45,194 nt of DNA. Origin: Polymyxa betae. Lineage: Eukaryota; Endomyxa; Phytomyxea; Plasmodiophorida; Plasmodiophoridae. How positions within the stretch are numbered: the first letter of the stretch is position 1; each line of letters starts with the position of its first letter. The notes under the pieces are model-generated. The model was not told the DNA's origin and did no database searches. It saw only the letters and a program-made list of their open reading frames with translations. Both the position numbers and the translations under genes were made by a program. The DNA is taken from assembly GCA_003693705.1 (NCBI GenBank), contig RBZT01000597.1:1-45194 (forward strand), given 5' to 3'. Of this stretch, positions 3,131-32,500 are shown one piece after another.

Positions 3131-4240
3131 TTACTTGAAGAGGCTTGCTCTCTTATCGTCTTTCTTTTCGTCTTTCTTCTTGTCATCCTTCTTCTCGTCC
3201 TTCTGGGAACAGACAGAAGATATCCAAGGTTATCCATAACAGGCAAATCGTCACAAGCGCAATGGAGACCCTATTGTTTGCATTCCATTCTAATCTCAGC
3301 TATATCGAAACAACACTTCCTAACAACATGAGCAGGCAAAATGACATTCCGGTGTCTGCGTCGTTCAATGCAACGAGAAAAAATGCCAGCGGTATCAGAG
3401 CTCAGGTTTGAAAGTGGGCGGGACATTGGTGCCAGCAGAGGCTGCCTGATGATCGAGTGACAACTGCTATCAAGTATCATATGCTTACGAAGTCGCTGCT
3501 CATTCATAACAATGATGCTGTGGTCAGTGCTGGCTCATTGCGACATCATTGACAATTGGGTGGCGACGAACAAGAAAGCGTCGTCTCGCAGATCAAAAGA
3601 TCTTCAACATTCGAATATCGCCAGGAACATTCCGATCGTATTTTACAAAGAGATGCTTGACGGTTTCTTACTCATGAAAACTTTTCCCGGAACGACATTT
3701 TTTGACAGATTTGGCAAATTTTTGCCTATCACCGCATGTTCTAATGAACTATCAGCCTGACTGCACTAGTTGACCAGAAGACTCTGGCAATATTGAAGAA
3801 CCGCTGGTAATTGCTGAAATCAATCTTGAAATGGAGATGACACAAGTTGGAGAGTAGAAGAGCTTCCGTTGTTGTTCACTAGTAAACTGTTCCTATTTGG
3901 CTAATAAGCCTGTTCCTGCCAATGATTGATTCCAACAGAAAGTTCATGAGCCGAGTCTTCGCTCGAGTTCTCATATGTCATCAGCAAGGTGATCGTTCTT
4001 GACTGGGAATTCAAATTCTATAAGACAATAGTCAGTTTCGCTGAAGTTTGGAATATCGAACTGTTGATTCGCGGAAATTGGATTATTTCACCTGGGCATA
4101 TGGAATCGTATAGCGTTAATCTGGCAATGGTAAAGAGCGCGGTTGTTACCGCATCACAACATCTATTCGACAGGCAAGCATTGGTCTTTTAGAGAAGTTT
4201 GTTTAATGAGTCCGAGGTACAGTGATGGTTGATCCATCAT
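3131..4240 (-). CDS. Unresolved gene for a membrane protein with Lys/Asp/Glu tail
   Basis: The last minus-strand exon, 3131-3202, follows a TTCCCAG acceptor and encodes a highly charged K/D/E-repeat tail that ends RASLFK. Upstream minus-strand segments encode hydrophobic stretches, for example RVSIALVTICLLWITLDIF and ALIPLAFFLVALNDAD, which look like transmembrane helices. Further segments at about 3900-4200 look coding but contain stops, so introns are needed. I could not fix exon borders or a start codon, although an ATG near 4238 on the minus strand is possible. The family is not recognised. The gene would be divergent to the WD40 gene. Confidence 0.35.
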
Positions 4241-24594: not shown

Positions 24595-27500
24595 TTACGT
24601 TAGCGCCGTATCTAACACGTATTCGAATTTCGGCAGGGTCAGGTACGACCGAACAGCGACGATCATGGCTTGCGTGGGCAACGAGATCGGGATCACGGGC
24701 TGGAACGGCGAGGTAGACGACGACAGGAGCGCGCCCGGATTCCGCGGCTGATAATGACAGGCTGGCAGCTGCCGACCGATATCAATGGGCATCGTCCGAC
24801 AGCCTCAGGACAGCGTTTACCTGAAGCAAGGCGATCTGCGTATCTTTCGCCGTCGGGCGCAGGACGTTCTCGATCCAGCGGCGCATACTGGCCCCGGTCG
24901 CCATCATCCACCGTACTGGATCAACATTGGGTCAGGTTCGTGCTGGTTCGAAGGAGTTCGTTACGTTCGATGTGGAAACAGGCGCTCTCGTCGACCACGG
25001 AATCGTAGTAAGCGCTGAACGATTGGTAGCGGTCGGCGTCGTCGACGAACCCGATGTCGATGTTGACGAACGCGTCCAGCGTGCCGGCCCCGAGCGGCTC
25101 CGGGATCTGCGAGACCCAACGCAGATTCAGGTCGGTGACGTCGCGGCCCAGCAGCGTCTGCAGGAACGTCGTCAGGCGCTCGACGTCCTGGACGCGCCCG
25201 TCCGCCAGCGACGTCGCACTGATCAGCGCGAACCTGCACCCCACCGTCAGTAACATAAATGTCGCATGACGTTACATGACGGGCGTAACGTCAATGCAGG
25301 AAACGTGACATACCGAAAGCGACGGTAGTTAAGGTTGGGTCCGGAAAGTGCGTCGACGTGGCCGGCCACGAGCTGGTCCGCGTAGTTCCAGTTAAATGGC
25401 GCATCCGTGGCACGGATCAGAGCGTCAATCGGTAACAGGGCCGCACACGCATCACTCCACAGGAAATAACGATACGGGAACGCCGGCTGCATGCCGAACA
25501 ACGTTACACTGTGTAACGTTGTGACACCGTGCTATGACCGACCTGATTGCCAGTGCTCCAGGGGGAGTCGTGCGTCACATTCGACAGGCGGAAATACCGA
25601 TGAACCTTCACAGGACACGTTACGCAGACACAGGGTAGCGCACGCAGACGTCACGGACCTGGATATTGTCCGTGGATCGGTCCAGTATGACCTGGTGATG
25701 ATCGCTGCCGAGTGACAGCTGGTAGAGGATGGATTGCCCCGGACCTGGCGAATGCCGTGTCGGAGCGACCATCAGCTGGAAATCGTTCGTCAGACGTTGT
25801 GTGATCAACTCCGTGAGCAGGTTCTCGGCTCTGTTCGTGGGTAACGTTATCACAAGGGGGTGCCACCAGTCTATACGTTACCTATCATGATAGCGCCGGT
25901 CATTTGGCACAAGCGACAGAGTCTGGACCGTATTGCGGAACTCCTTCTGTAGCTGGTCCAGATGCGGGAAATAGTCCGTGGTCAGGGGCAGTACGGCCGG
26001 CGTGCACAGCGACTTGAGATCGAGTTGGGTGAGTGGCTCCTCTACTGACAAGCTCACGATTAGAGAAGGGTTGCTGCGGCACGGAGTCCGTGGCGGCAAT
26101 GGACGTCACGGACCTTGTTTCGGGAACAGATGCACCCAGCGACGACGATTATTGGCCAACTTCGGGGTCGAACTCTGACACAGCCCTCATCAGAACCCGC
26201 GGATCGTAACGTAATCCGGGGGCGTAACATAAATATGAAACGTAATAGGGGTAACGTAAAATGTGCGAAGGCGAATGAGTGAAATGTAATCAAAAAGGTA
26301 ACGTAATCAAAGTCACATAGCGTAAAATATGCGACGGCGAATGCGTGTTACATGGAGCCTGAATGGGTTGGGCTCTGTGGCGATCCCGCCCAAGTCGGAG
26401 CCCGGGGACGATACGGACGCGGTCAGCGGGGCCGTGTACGACTCCACGAGGATCGGTCGTGATTGGTCGTCGTGCTGGACCTCGAACAGGACTTGGTGAC
26501 GGCCGACGCCTACGTCCGTGGTTGTCAGTGACGGACAATGATGGGCGCAGGTCGCCACGGACCTGCGGAGCCTGATCGGCTCGGTGTGGGTGTGCTGGAG
26601 TCGAGCCGGATCTTGGACGCGGCCGCGGACATAGTGGCGGACACCGCCGGCGAAAATGACGACGGCGCCGGTGGCGATGCCCATCGTTTCGGGACGAGAT
26701 CGGTCGGGGATCCGGAGCTCACTTGACGCTGCTGCGGAATGCGGAACTCCGACTGTGCCAATATCGTTTCACGTTACATTATGTTACGAAATCGTGAACA
26801 ATCATCGTTACGCGATGATCCAATGCGGACATGGAGACAGTCTTGGTCAGCGATGTCGGATGATACCGGACAGGACGCACGGACTCCGTGGGTCCGGGCA
26901 GCTGTGGCGACGCCGACAGTGACGGGACGATCTGGCCCAGCGACGGAAACGATCCCGAGTGCGCAATGTAACGAATCGGTGAGCGTAACGCCTCGGACTC
27001 CGAAAGGCAGGGACCTTCCCCGCACTGGAACACGTCGCTGTCGTACTGGTCGTAATAAGCCGGATTTAGCTCCTAGAAATCCAGTTAAGAGAAACCTGTA
27101 GCCCGGAAACCCTAAACCCTACTAGAATCGAGATCGAATCGGAGAGGGTCGGAGTCACGGGGTACACGACAGAGTTCGACGCAAAGGCCCAGTCCGGGTC
27201 GGACTGCGACGATGGGAACATTCGACAGAGAGGGATCGGGCCGAATCCATCACCGCCCTTCTCGCCCTACAAGCGGTATCGGCATTGGCAAGGTAAACGG
27301 CAACGTAAAACAGGTATCAGAAAAACAAGGTAACGTAAGAACCCTAACTGACCCAGTGCGAATCCCGTCCGGGTTCGGCCCAGAACTTCATCCCGAGCCA
27401 GTCGTCGGCGATACTGTATCGCGGCTGTGCCCTGTAACATAATGCGATGAGGTGATCGCCGCAGGTGTGTAACGTTTACGTACAGGGAGGGGGCGGTCTC

Positions 27501-29364
27501 CTGAACGTTATAGACGAAGAGCGGGACAGCATGGAGGGGAGGCCGCGCCATCGAGATCAGATCGCAGCCGATCCCGTTATCCACCATTCGTTCCTTGGTG
27601 AGTTCCAGCAGCCGAGGGTCCACAGTCCAGACACCTGACGCAACGTTACCCAACCGACGTGGCCATTCAGAGTGGTGACACGTTACCGGTGCCGGCCGTG
27701 ACGACCACGACGGCCTGCGCGGTCCGATGCAAGTCGCGATCCACGAAGTGTTTGTCGAAGGCGTTGGCGGCCAGGTTGATCGCCTCCAATACGTTACCGT
27801 CCGTGGCCGAGCACGGCACGCCCTGTAACGTGTCAGTCAACCCCCAGGCGTATCGTAAGAAAAACTGAACGGACTTTCAGGCCGGAGATGGGGTCCAGGG
27901 CGCCCCAGCGCAGCTCCTGGCTGAACCGGTTGATGCCCCGGATCAGCAGCGAACGTAACGTGGCCCAGTCGCGTCGCGACTCGCCCTCGAACACCAACTG
28001 TAACGTGATCAGCGAGTCGATCAGCACGCACGACCCCGAGACCAAGCGACCTTATAATAGTCCTGGTACAGGCGCTGCTGAGCATCGGTCTGGAACACGT
28101 TCGAGACGTCCGCCAACAACCTGCAACGATAACCGATTTGGTGTAACGTATAAAGTAAGGGAAAATCACTTGGCAACGTAAACCATTGGAAACGAAATCG
28201 AACAAAGAAGAATGAATGCGTTGACATAAACGTCGTTACGTCTGTTCGGAGTGGGCGACGGCGGGTTTCGGACCCCAGATGGGGGCGCGGGCCTCGATCG
28301 GCACGAAGAAGGTCCGCGCGAACAGCACGATTCTCAAGCTGTGATTGACGCCCAGCTTCTGCCATTGCTGGAACACGAACTGTGTAACAACAACAACACA
28401 GGTCGGTTTCGGTTACAGTCAACCGATGCCACGTTACTTTGAAGAGTCCATTGACGAGATTCTCCTCATACAGCTGCCCATCATCATCATAATCCCACAT
28501 CTCTTTGCTCAGCTGAATCAACCAGGTGATCTTCGCAGATCGAGACCGATACACGAGCTTGGTGGCGGCCGTGATCTGTCCGCACAGCATCGCCTGACCC
28601 CATCATCAGTAACGTAACATCCTGACACCAGCTAGCTACGTTACCTTGCCATTGACAAGAAGTTCATCAGCGCGGGCCGTGATGCCCATCGCTGTGATCG
28701 TCTTGGTAGAATAGACACAGGACCCCGTCAAGTCCTGTTTCAGGCGCCACATGTCACCCCTAAAACCCTAAAAACCCTAAACCCTAGACAAAGGGTTTCG
28801 TTTTACCGCGAGATGTACTGGTCGCTGAAGCTAAGCTGAAGGAAGTCGAGAGCGACGATCCCGTCGGCGGTCAGGATACGGACCACGACCTGGCAGCGAT
28901 TCTTCAATTCGAATAGATCCGCGATTCCCTTCCGGATGCTAATCTGCACATTCCCTGCAACAAACCGGCGTAAAAATACGAAATAAAATAATAAAAAACT
29001 TGAAAAGAAAAAACAAATCAAAGAAACAGGAGACGGGCGACCCTTCACGGGATTGAGTTCGGTGATGCGCGTCTGTAGTCGGGGCGCATCCGGTCCCCGT
29101 TCGGCATCGGAGATGGCGATCAGGTCGCCAATACGCAAACCCGGGAACGATTCCGGGTTCAGGCAGATCTCAGCCCGGCTCGATCGGAAACGCTCCTCGT
29201 GGACGACCTAACAAAAGTCACGGTCGGCGCCCCGCGTTCCAGTACGACCCGCCATCACCGACCAGGGTCCGGGTATAGGTACGCGCGTCATAATGGTCGC
29301 CGCCGCGATCCGACCCGGGCTGGTCGCGCTGCCGCCACCGACCGACGCGGCGTTGTCCGGCCAT
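24595..29364 (-). CDS. DEPDC5: Iml1/DEPDC5, GATOR1 subunit
   Basis: N-terminal exons run 29364-29263, 29207-29042, 28954-28807, 28759-28645, 28593-28438, 28379-28240, 28120-28051, 27997-27866, 27822-27687, 27634-27507 and 27424-27353, all in phase. C-terminal exons are 25233-24965, 24915-24821 and 24768-24595. Middle exon borders are approximate. Diagnostic motifs are [54 protein letters not shown] with [35 protein letters not shown] and [23 protein letters not shown]5/Iml1, with Nprl2/Nprl3, is the Rag GTPase-activating complex that restrains TORC1 at the lysosome when amino acids are scarce. The sequence passes from the [16 protein letters not shown] helix almost directly to the C-terminal domain, so a DEP domain seems absent. 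Exons are GC-rich relative to neighbours. Many introns start GTAACG. Confidence 0.9.
25498..25522. repeat. 25-nt perfect palindrome in an intron
   Basis: ACAACGTTACAC and GTGTAACGTTGT are perfect 12-nt reverse complements around a single T. The palindrome is built of two head-to-head copies of the cluster motif and lies close to an intron 3' end (minus strand). Confidence 0.9.
26255..26347. repeat. Imperfect direct repeat inside an Iml1 intron
   Basis: Two 27-nt units, 26255-26281 and 26321-26347, share 24 of 27 bases. They begin CGTAAAATRTGCGA and end GCGAATGMGTG. The intervening sequence holds a further GTAACGTAATC, and the 5' flank another GTAACGT. On the minus strand they lie in an intron starting GTAACACG. 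Confidence 0.7.
27107..27122 (-). repeat. Telomere-like TTTAGGG repeat near a donor site
   Basis: AAACCCTAAACCCTAC on the plus strand reads GTAGGGTTTAGGGTTT on the minus strand. It could be the 5' splice site and first bases of a 50-nt intron that ends CTAG at about 27073. Confidence 0.6.
28760..28786 (-). repeat. Telomere-like TTTAGGG repeat forming an acceptor
   Basis: On the minus strand this is CTAGGGTTTAGGG, then TTTTTAGGG, then TTTTAG. It fills the 3' half of Iml1 intron 28760-28806, and the final TTTTAG is the acceptor. The exons on both sides join in phase at the [10 protein letters not shown] sequence, so the placement is firm. Confidence 0.85.
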
Positions 29365-29537: not shown

Positions 29538-32500
29538 TCAGGAGGTCTGCGAGATCTGACGCAGCATGTCTTTGGTGTAATCGAGACGGCGGCGGAAATC
29601 GTCGCGATCGCGGTCGTGACAACCTTGATCGATATGGCACAGATAGGCGGCGTTGTTCTGCAACGAAGACTCAATACCGAATTTGATACCGATAATGGGA
29701 TTGTCAATAAGGTCATCGACAATCAAAACGCAATATCATAGATCGATTTCTCCCTTTGAATGAAACTTTTGGTTACAAAAAATGACGAAATGAAAATGGA
29801 AAACCACTCGATCGCGACACTTTCAATCCAGACGCGAGAATTCATAGAGAACTGCGAAAACCGATGCAGCCACCAAACTTTAACAAACCTTATCGGTGAA
29901 TCTGACGATCCTGTCTGAGTTGATGACCAATTCTGAGCGATCAGCAAACAGAACCTAAAAATCGCCAGTCAGTTTGCAAAGCTTGACTATCACTAATTGA
30001 TGCCGACCTGCACGACACCGTTGCTCAATGCAAACAGAATCGATCGTTTCGTAGTGGCCCATTTCTTGGCATACACTGAAATCATAATTAAATAAAAAAC
30101 AAACAGACCATATTGATTAAAGCTAACAATGGGGCTCATATAAACAATCATCTCTTCAAAAGTGGATCTAATGAGGGTAAGCAGAGAAAAAACGACAGAC
30201 CTAGATCTGATCCCTTCGTTGACTTGAACGACAGCTGTATTCCGGCCGTGATATGTTTCTGGAAATGATTCAGCAATGTGACCTTCTTCTGGAGCCCGGC
30301 AGGATCGTATTTTCGTTTCGGATCGTAATGCGACGCCTGTCCGATTTCCGAATGACGCTCATAATATACAAATATGCTGCATGGCGAAACTCAATACAGC
30401 AGCAAATCGCGAAAAATGCCAGAAGCTAGAAATCTTCCCAGGCCTTCATTTTCTTTCAGAAAAGTCGAGAGGTAAGCTCAGTAAAAAACTTCAACCGAAA
30501 AAACGAATACATCAAGACGTACGTGGAGGAGGGATTCAAAATGATTTTGGTTCCATCATTGAAATAGACGCCGACACCGCCCTCCGATGTCAAATACCCG
30601 ATCCCATATTTTTCCGAATAGTTCAGCGTTTTGATGATCGTGACGCAGTCCCTCCAGTGCAGCTTCTCGTTCTGATCTGCACCGGATCACATCAGCTCGA
30701 CCAGCGCTCATAATAAGAAAAACAGCAAAAACACAGCAATAAACAGAACCAAGGATCACAAATCGAGAAAAAACCTGCCGGGGCTGGCACGACCCTGAAA
30801 CTTTTGTCAATGGCTTTTTGCAGGTTATCGAACTGCTGCCGGATTTGAACGGCAAATTTGTCAACGAAGTTTTCCTGATCAGCGCTGCCGATTTGTCCAC
30901 CGCCTGTGATCCTGCAGCCAATCCTTTAGTTCAATGCCGAAGGCAACGCTGGTCGTACTGGTTCGCATCCGTTGTCGAGTTGAATGGATTCGACTTTAAC
31001 GCCGATAATGGCAACGATGTGGGGACATTCGACATAAAGAATAAATCTACAGTCAGGATTAAACTTGACGAAACTCTTGAAGGCAATAAAACAGAACCTA
31101 CGAGATCGGATCTGCCGTAACGTTGCCCTTCGATTCGGAAGTAGAACAAGCATGCGTGAGATGAGGTCCTTGGCAGCAGCTGAAATCGGGATCCGGCTCG
31201 GGTACTCGTAATTGTTGGCGCGAATTCGGGCGTACGTCTCCTTGATGTTTGACGTCTCGAACGGCGGATACCCTGATTTAGGCCATCAATCCCGAGATAT
31301 ACAAACAAAGGAAAATACGACAAGAAGAGGTTTAACAGACACAAATTAGAACAGAGACAGAAGCACAAGGTTGCAGACAGACCTACTAAGATGGTGTACA
31401 TGATGACGCCCAGACTCCAGATGTCGACCTCGAACGAATGACCGCTGGTGGAATTGTCGAGAATCTCCGGCGCTGAAGACGTCGTTAATGCCAGGCGATC
31501 AGCAACAAAAGATTCGTGAGCGAGTACCAATATAGTTGGGCGTCCCGCTGCAAATGAAAGAATCATGTCAGAACAAGCTGAATTAGAGGATGGAAAGTTT
31601 TCAATTGCTATGGCGGAAATAAGTGAAACAGTCGGAAGTGTGTTGACAAAAGTATCATTTTCGTGGAAAACTTTCTATAAAAATTGCGGTCTGAAAGCCA
31701 GAACGAACCAAATCGTGGTCTTTCGTTCATTTTCCTCTGATAGTCGAGCGGCCAGCCCGAAATCACCCATTTTCAGCCTCAGATTGTCATGAAGAAAAAG
31801 GTTGCCAAGTTTTAGGTCGCGATGAATCACGCGGTGCTGCCGAAGATACTCCAAGACATCCAGAATCTGAAGAATGAAGAATTGCGCTTCCTGCATTGAC
31901 AGCTCAGAATCAATTTGATAACGAAAATCAACCCGACAAGCAAGATATCGCACAACGTGACAAGAACAGGTTGCAGACAAACAGAGAACTATTCATGTAA
32001 GATCCATCAATGTGAAAGGCAAAATTCGAATAAACTTGATAAGAAAGAGGAAATGCATTCAAAGGAAACTGAAACAAAAAGATAAGATTGGATTAATTCA
32101 AAAATGCTTACAGGCTCGGTGAGGTTACCCCTCACTTTCAGCATCTCTGATAAGGTCTGATACTTGCACCTCTCTAAGAGAATATACACGTTCTCATGGT
32201 CCTCTGTAAGATGGCGTCAGAACAGGACGTCTTTAGACCCAGCTCTCAAACCGACCGAAGAAGTGGTGAAATTTGACGATGCCGTCGTGTTGCAGATTGC
32301 GATGGATTCGGATTTCGTTCACCAACTGCAAATACATGGTGTGAGAATTGAAAAGCGAAAGCATGTGCTTCGAAATGGAGAGAATGATCAGCGATTGAGC
32401 TGCAGACTACGTGATCGCCAGCATGAACGAAACCAAGAAAGCCAATTTGAAAAAAGTTCGAATGAAAAGCTTGCTAAAGGCAAGAAACCCGGATTCACGA

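Follow-up and report, generated by a model that had tools for sequence, protein, structure and literature searches.

The origin of new introns is an open question, and the known bursts of intron gain involve whole repeated elements. As described in the available parts of the source, introners of Micromonas, Aureococcus and dinoflagellates occur in many genes, have ends of inverted-repeat character and can supply the 5' splice site, and some of their families lack duplications (Gozashti et al. 2022, PMC9860276). Introns of Polymyxa betae, first of all those of its Iml1/DEPDC5 gene, many of which carry the word GTAACGT or its reverse complement ACGTTAC, recall these features, with mixed evidence on terminal inverted repeats; introner families are, however, defined in that source by sequence similarity, whereas here only the 7-nt word is common. 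In Amorphochlora, another rhizarian, gained introns have no conserved sequence or terminal repeats in the part of the report available (PMC12730881). The Iml1 gene lies in the window, the whole stretch of DNA that was analysed (45,194 nucleotides; assembly GCA_003693705.1, contig RBZT01000597.1, positions 1 to 45,194 of the forward strand).

That introns otherwise unrelated should have a seven-letter word in common may point to an uncommon mode of intron formation or marking in this parasite of plant roots, a relative of Spongospora and Plasmodiophora. The word is a gene-restricted feature of introns that is real and recurs across the genome. Tentatively, and without calling it probable, we favour an introner-like effect, in which DNA carrying the word would have given rise to new introns, or served to rebuild existing ones, and supplied their splice sites.

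GTAACGT in the introns of Iml1/DEPDC5

The window contains 31 copies of GTAACGT/ACGTTAC, against 3.10 expected from 100 dinucleotide shuffles, the largest of which gave 7. Twenty-three of them, in both orientations, lie at 25269-28644 in the Iml1/DEPDC5 gene, in agreement with the roughly 23 exact copies in 3.4 kb counted in an earlier sequence-only reading. All but two of these (27791 and 27955, in exons) are intronic, with near equal numbers in the two orientations (9 and 12), and the density is 14.3 per kb in introns versus 0.6 per kb in exons. Neither 1-kb flank of the Iml1 coding region contains the word, and a looser 6-mer class is likewise absent from both.

The exons were joined by hand and the protein was then aligned with those of Spongospora subterranea and Plasmodiophora brassicae. 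The closest relatives are these phytomyxean proteins (Spongospora, 54% over 100% of the query; Plasmodiophora, 49%), and the identity of the gene is supported by Pfam (IML1, E 1e-90) and PDB (DEPDC5, E 5.9e-189); these searches, including that for homologues, used an earlier model of 1065 residues that preceded the splitting of intron 18 and the extension of the start. The alignment also resolved a 115-nt intron into two introns around a conserved exon. With GT-AG borders for all 22 introns, the restored frame aligns with the Spongospora and Plasmodiophora proteins; less sure are introns 10 and 12, whose junctions lie in gapped parts of the alignment. By the criterion of GT-AG borders with a restored frame, the predicted introns qualify as U2 spliceosomal introns, and non-canonical borders are unneeded for any of the 22. 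The gene and its introns are as follows.

24595..29364, minus strand: Iml1/DEPDC5 gene, 1101 residues, 22 introns; ATG at 29364, stop at 24595
29208..29262, minus strand: intron 1, 55 nt, donor GTCGGT
28955..29041, minus strand: intron 2, 87 nt, T-rich, donor GTCGCC, without the word
28760..28806, minus strand: intron 3, 47 nt, telomere-like TTTAGGG run up to the acceptor
28594..28644, minus strand: intron 4, 51 nt, GTAACGTAGC pairs with GTTACGTTAC, fold z -3.35
28380..28437, minus strand: intron 5, 58 nt, starts GTAACGT, ends GTTACACAG
28121..28239, minus strand: intron 6, 119 nt, starts GTAACGA, ACGTTAC inside
27998..28050, minus strand: intron 7, 53 nt, ends CACGTTACAG
27823..27874, minus strand: intron 8, 52 nt, starts GTCCGT, ends CACGTTACAG
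27635..27686, minus strand: intron 9, 52 nt, starts GTAACGT, second GTAACGT inside
27432..27483, minus strand: intron 10, 52 nt, starts GTACGTAAACGTTAC, ends ATGTTACAG
27267..27352, minus strand: intron 11, 86 nt, ACGTTAC inside
27073..27122, minus strand: intron 12, 50 nt, starts GTAGGGTTTAGGG, a telomere-like word at the donor
26753..26811, minus strand: intron 13, 59 nt, starts GTAACGA, two more sense copies of the word class
26510..26562, minus strand: intron 14, 53 nt, second word pair GTCCGTGG..CCACGGAC, convergent
26175..26351, minus strand: intron 15, 177 nt, starts GTAACAC, several ACGTTAC, partial internal duplication
26042..26113, minus strand: intron 16, 72 nt, starts GTCCGTGACGTC, CCACGGAC inside
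25831..25881, minus strand: intron 17, 51 nt, starts GTAACGT, AACGTTAC inside
25606..25658, minus strand: intron 18, 53 nt, starts GTCCGTGACGTC, GTAACGT inside
25487..25542, minus strand: intron 19, 56 nt, 25-nt imperfect palindrome CAACGTTACAC-AGT-GTAACGTTG, fold z -3.31
25234..25313, minus strand: intron 20, 80 nt, GACGTTAC..GTAACGTC inside
24916..24964, minus strand: intron 21, 49 nt, starts GTAACGA
24769..24820, minus strand: intron 22, 52 nt, starts GTAAAC

The introns total 1464 nt, and 16 of the 22 are 47-59 nt long. Eight begin with GTAAC (GTAACGT in four, GTAACGA in three, GTAACAC in one), where at least seven starting GTAACG or GTAACA had been noted from the letters, and two end in ACGTTACAG. 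The endings listed in that reading also reappear in the homology-checked model: CACGTTACAG twice (27998-28050 and 27823-27874), GTTACACAG once (28380-28437) and ATGTTACAG once (27432-27483). Introns 3 and 12 each have a telomere-like run at one splice site.

Outside Iml1, two direct GTAACGT copies stand ten bases apart at 731 and 741 (731-747), as had been reported. The palindrome of intron 19, at 25498-25522, consists of two word copies. Three Iml1 introns (26042-26113, 26510-26562 and 25606-25658) begin with another word, GTCCGTGRCGWC; two of them also hold its complement, and CACGGAC clusters within the gene. As a genome-wide pair family, GTCCGTG/CACGGAC was rejected: four convergent and two divergent pairs were counted (GTCCGTGACGTC, 10 versus 2 in the reversed control), and it is local at most.

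Recurrence of the word across the genome

Word islands, defined as at least three copies within 1 kb, recur on many contigs of the genome searched (24.43 Mb, 541 contigs). Nineteen islands of 0.3-3.6 kb each were observed: one in the window, one in stretch L025 and 17 in stretches selected for word pairs, 11 of 17 such stretches having an island and 6 having none. Unselected DNA (13 stretches, 130 kb) gave 12 copies, about the chance number, including a small cluster of three in L025. Among 7-mers that cluster non-tandemly, GTAACGT ranks next after the telomeric words of L026, most of the scanned stretches being word-selected.

To the Iml1 introns we added those of two genes whose introns were also placed by homology, NOG1 (contig C287, 8 introns) and a DUF2235 hydrolase (contig C354, 6 introns), both picked through the presence of the word, giving 36 checked introns. 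The word class, GTAAC[GA] or [CT]GTTAC, occurs in 26 of the 36 (Iml1 15/22, NOG1 5/8, DUF2235 6/6), and 13 have GTAAC donors (8/22, 3/8 and 2/6, respectively); 22 of the 36 are 45-60 nt long. The class is concentrated at the donor itself, being found at 11 of 30 donors of Iml1 and NOG1 versus 9 of 247 internal GTs (Fisher 3e-7). In NOG1 the exact word occurs 8 times in introns (4.0 per kb) and never in exons; its 1-kb flanks have 0 and 4 copies, the four lying inside a predicted neighbouring gene. Neither 1-kb flank of the DUF2235 gene has a copy.

Because the aligner permitted nothing else, the introns of NOG1, DUF2235 and the kinase control described below are GT-AG by construction. In NOG1, spurious aligner exons of 3 and 4 residues were merged by hand, reducing the introns from 10 to 8, and one of four homologues placed the last intron elsewhere. 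The third DUF2235 intron starts at 3614 by one homologue and at 3647 by four; the longer form was counted, and both contain the word.

2956-4583 of L031 (contig C354): DUF2235/PF09994 hydrolase gene, 6 introns by homology
31112..32316 of the window, minus strand: polo-like kinase domain, control neighbour, 5 homology-placed introns

One intron of the DUF2235 gene reads GTAACGT..GCGTTACAG in 53 nt. Among the best 120 of 2298 homologues of this protein, two are from Plasmodiophora, and all remaining organism names are those of bacteria; many entries carry only a family name or none. Fungal DUF2235 proteins exist. Judging from these matches, the gene possibly came from a bacterium before the split of Plasmodiophora and Polymyxa; if so, its six introns would be gains, and a bacterial-like gene with six word-bearing introns is a natural test of intron gain.

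In the polo-like kinase domain, none of the five introns has a GTAAC donor and none, by eye, contains the word. This is the one gene for which the earlier statement that other genes of the window use varied donors was checked by homology. A home-made ab initio gene finder merged genes and, after retraining, recovered 12 of the 36 checked introns, and its donor counts are therefore weak. In one set of its predictions, GTAAC started 5/22 of the short introns in island stretches, 2/32 in other stretches, and 1/22 in unselected stretches (without L025) taken with the window outside Iml1. A second set gave GTAAC donors in 17/108 cases in selected and 3/50 in unselected stretches; the 6/44 found in the window outside Iml1 runs counter to this contrast.

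How the words may have entered introns

Since 17 of the fetched stretches had been selected for word pairs, orientation statistics on them were set aside and exact genome-wide counts were used instead. At gaps of 18-48, convergent pairs number 55 versus 15 divergent ones (P 1.7e-6 on the assumption of independence, which does not fully hold for clustered pairs); the 50 of 55 convergent pairs that were listed lie on 41 contigs, two of them inside Iml1. The right word has AG directly after it in 9 instances (gap 20-50) out of some 110 opportunities on both strands, which is near 1 in 16 and indicates that a word pair is not usually a whole intron. The full palindrome GTAACGTTAC was rejected as a special element (96 versus 80 in the reversed control).

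In the favoured reading, a subset of genes would hold introns, mostly of about 50 nt, whose gain or rebuilding drew on DNA with a few short words in it, namely GTAACGT, read in one direction or the other, and TTTAGGG repeats of telomere-like type. Such words would themselves provide the splice sites, with GTAACG as the 5' splice site and ACGTTACAG or TTTAG as the 3' splice site. Here we infer both intron gain and the arrival of the words with inserted DNA. In favour of this reading are the concentration of the word in introns and at donors, its absence from the Iml1 flanks, the DUF2235 gene with the word class in every intron, the convergent excess, and the telomere-like doublets that lie near the word and at splice sites of two Iml1 introns. 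Several results weigh against it. The two exonic copies in Iml1 exceed the codon-shuffle mean of 0.34 (P 0.042), and direct pairs are the commonest arrangement at gaps of 18-48 (49 + 70 = 119). At 61 convergent pairs, not all of them known introns, target-site duplications were no more frequent than expected (2-bp, 2 versus 4.75; 3-bp, 1 versus 0.90), and the 36 checked introns showed no excess of junction repeats (sum 70 versus 73.1 at random), leaving no trace of duplicating transposition or of microhomology repair. Outside the words, these introns shared k-mers of 8-12 nt no more than shuffles did (P 0.34-0.84; k=8, 403 versus 395.2; k=10, 41 versus 55.0). Finally, 10 of the 36 lack the word class, one of them having a telomere-like run at the donor and one at the acceptor.

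Another candidate is a DNA-transposon introner of the classical kind, whose terminal inverted repeats would be GTAACGT and which would have copied itself into exons. Donors at the word and convergent pairs would fit such an element, and introner families of Acanthoeca have terminal repeats and no duplications in the part of the source available (PMC9860276). Against it stand the missing duplications, the lack of a clear AG excess after the right end, and the lack of a family with similar bodies. Introns alike over their length, as in a family defined by sequence, were found neither among the 36 introns nor by BLAST of the Iml1 island against 294 kb, where the hits were an 80% match of 41 nt between two arrays of the word (L030), runs of telomere-like type, a few matches of 21-46 nt at E 0.09-0.33 and one local duplication. 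Similarity anchored downstream of the donor was 0.229 for GTAAC introns versus 0.261 for others. We consider this origin quite unlikely.

A regional DNA process, in which replication or repair accumulates the word in noncoding regions and introns use it, would be in keeping with the abundance of direct pairs. It would also suit the internal duplications in Iml1 intron 15 and, by eye, in NOG1 intron 4, where stretches are duplicated, and the looser 6-mer class, which has 3 occurrences in one 1-kb flank of the DUF2235 gene and 4 in the other. The Iml1 flanks, free of either class, and the wordless introns of the neighbouring kinase speak against such a process, which is very improbable. Diverged internal duplications of a word-bearing stretch were seen in long word-rich introns (26175-26351 in the window and 4640-4881 in L030).

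The main rival is a selected splicing code, in which ordinary introns of a set of genes evolved GUAACG as their 5' splice site, together with CGUUAC in the interior or close to the 3' end, forming a hairpin or bound by a factor, to mark or regulate introns. Such a code accounts for exact reverse-complementary words without common bodies or duplications, and for the confinement to introns and the convergent excess. Folding is also consistent with it: Iml1 introns are on average more stably folded than their shuffled versions (mean z -0.89), those with both orientations of the word most strongly (-1.72, versus -0.39 for those with none), and other predicted introns gave -0.78 with both and -0.10 with none. 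In addition, a complementary pair unrelated to GTAACGT, GTCCGTGG/CCACGGAC, makes the same stem at the 5' end of Iml1 introns 14 and 16. The pairing is, however, not specific to the individual intron. A 5'-terminal inverted repeat of at least 6 nt was present in 8 of 36 introns versus 6.6 after 5' ends had been swapped (P 0.30), the longest exact one being 8 nt; the near-equal numbers suggest that the stems follow from the common word, and hairpin compensation as the driver was rejected on this swap test. Nor was a variant U1 small nuclear RNA (snRNA) matching GTAACG found: all four U1 snRNA-like genes detected (L003, L004, L005 and L006), which score below the Rfam gathering threshold, have the canonical 5' end ATACTTACCT, and this end does not favour GTAACG. 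We regard a splicing code as possible but doubtful.

Such a code also leaves the telomere-like words unexplained: a splicing hairpin does not predict them, whereas DNA brought in with words does. Word-selected stretches hold 22 telomeric-repeat doublets in 136 kb and unselected stretches 3 in 120 kb (P 4e-4), an imperfect comparison because the latter are mostly contig starts; L026, which begins near a telomeric array, was omitted. The doublets also lie close to GTAACGT, with 19 of 25 within 600 nt versus 12.5 by chance (P 0.0035). The three doublets of the window are in Iml1 introns 3 and 12 (28758-28786 and 27110-27121), one overlapping the acceptor by 2 nt. Overall, 29 TTTAGGG-type doublets were seen in or near genes in 314 kb outside L026 (e.g., L008 5334, L013 275, L015 7621, L031 3765).

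Myb-type factors bind TAACG and telomeric repeats, and both word types might be intronic regulatory sites bound by DNA-binding proteins that act from within the gene. The near-equal orientations in Iml1 introns, the clustering and the company of two word types would agree with this, but the absence of copies from the Iml1 flanks, the strong placement exactly at donors and the convergent excess do not, and we think it unlikely.

Weighing these explanations, we favour gain or rebuilding of introns from word-bearing DNA over the splicing code. The sequence-only reading had proposed that introners colonised Iml1 or homogenised its introns. Donor placement, recurrence in genes on other contigs, the convergent excess and the DUF2235 gene, with the word in all six introns, lend this partial support, whereas the lack of duplications and of similarity outside the word, the predominance of direct pairs, AG at about 1 in 16 and the swap test do not support it. 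As for the confinement to a single gene, with nothing else in common, that was to count against it, other genes do have the word, and nothing beyond the word is common.

Comparison with described introns

The introns described here are introner-like, since they begin at a common word, and fail the test of common bodies that defines an introner family. In a compact 24-Mb genome, with the genomes of relatives published, they form gene-restricted islands and are alike only in a short word and its complement. We found no phytomyxean report of such introns in titles and abstracts of the open literature on rhizarian introners, terminal repeats and Plasmodiophora introns. It is conceivable, though we would not expect it, that introns are born or marked here by short words alone (GTAACGT and telomere-like), which are brought into genes and turn into splice sites with no element body or duplication, in Rhizaria and including a possibly bacterial gene.

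Plasmodiophora genes are reportedly intron-rich, as Bulman et al. are said to have noted in 2007. Ordinary Plasmodiophora introns, with an average of 4 per gene and 60 bp in the part of the genome report available, fall in the same length class as those seen here; unlike them, those of Iml1 number 22 over 3.3 kb of coding sequence and come with the word (PMC4471660). The Spongospora sequences in that report are described as transcriptome-derived.

Fungal introner-like elements, or symmetrical stwintrons, resemble the present introns in inverted-repeat symmetry, canonical splice sites and, as far as the accessible text goes, a lack of flanking duplications; they have repeats of 45-55 nt and similar sisters, whereas here exact 5'-terminal repeats reach at most 8 nt and the bodies are unrelated (PMC8469720). 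Euglenid nonconventional and intermediate introns share the possibility that pairing joins the intron ends, but the nonconventional ones have variable borders in the available part of the source, and the introns here fit GT-AG (PMC4770533). Introner elements of Amoebophrya, also a parasitic protist, have inverted repeats that pair the intron ends, as the word and its complement might do here, and no family-specific repeat motif was detected among them in the sections of the paper available (PMC7789003). Their inverted repeats are of 8-20 nt, with direct repeats of 3-5 nt at the boundaries and many non-canonical borders, whereas here there are no direct repeats and a single word is found.

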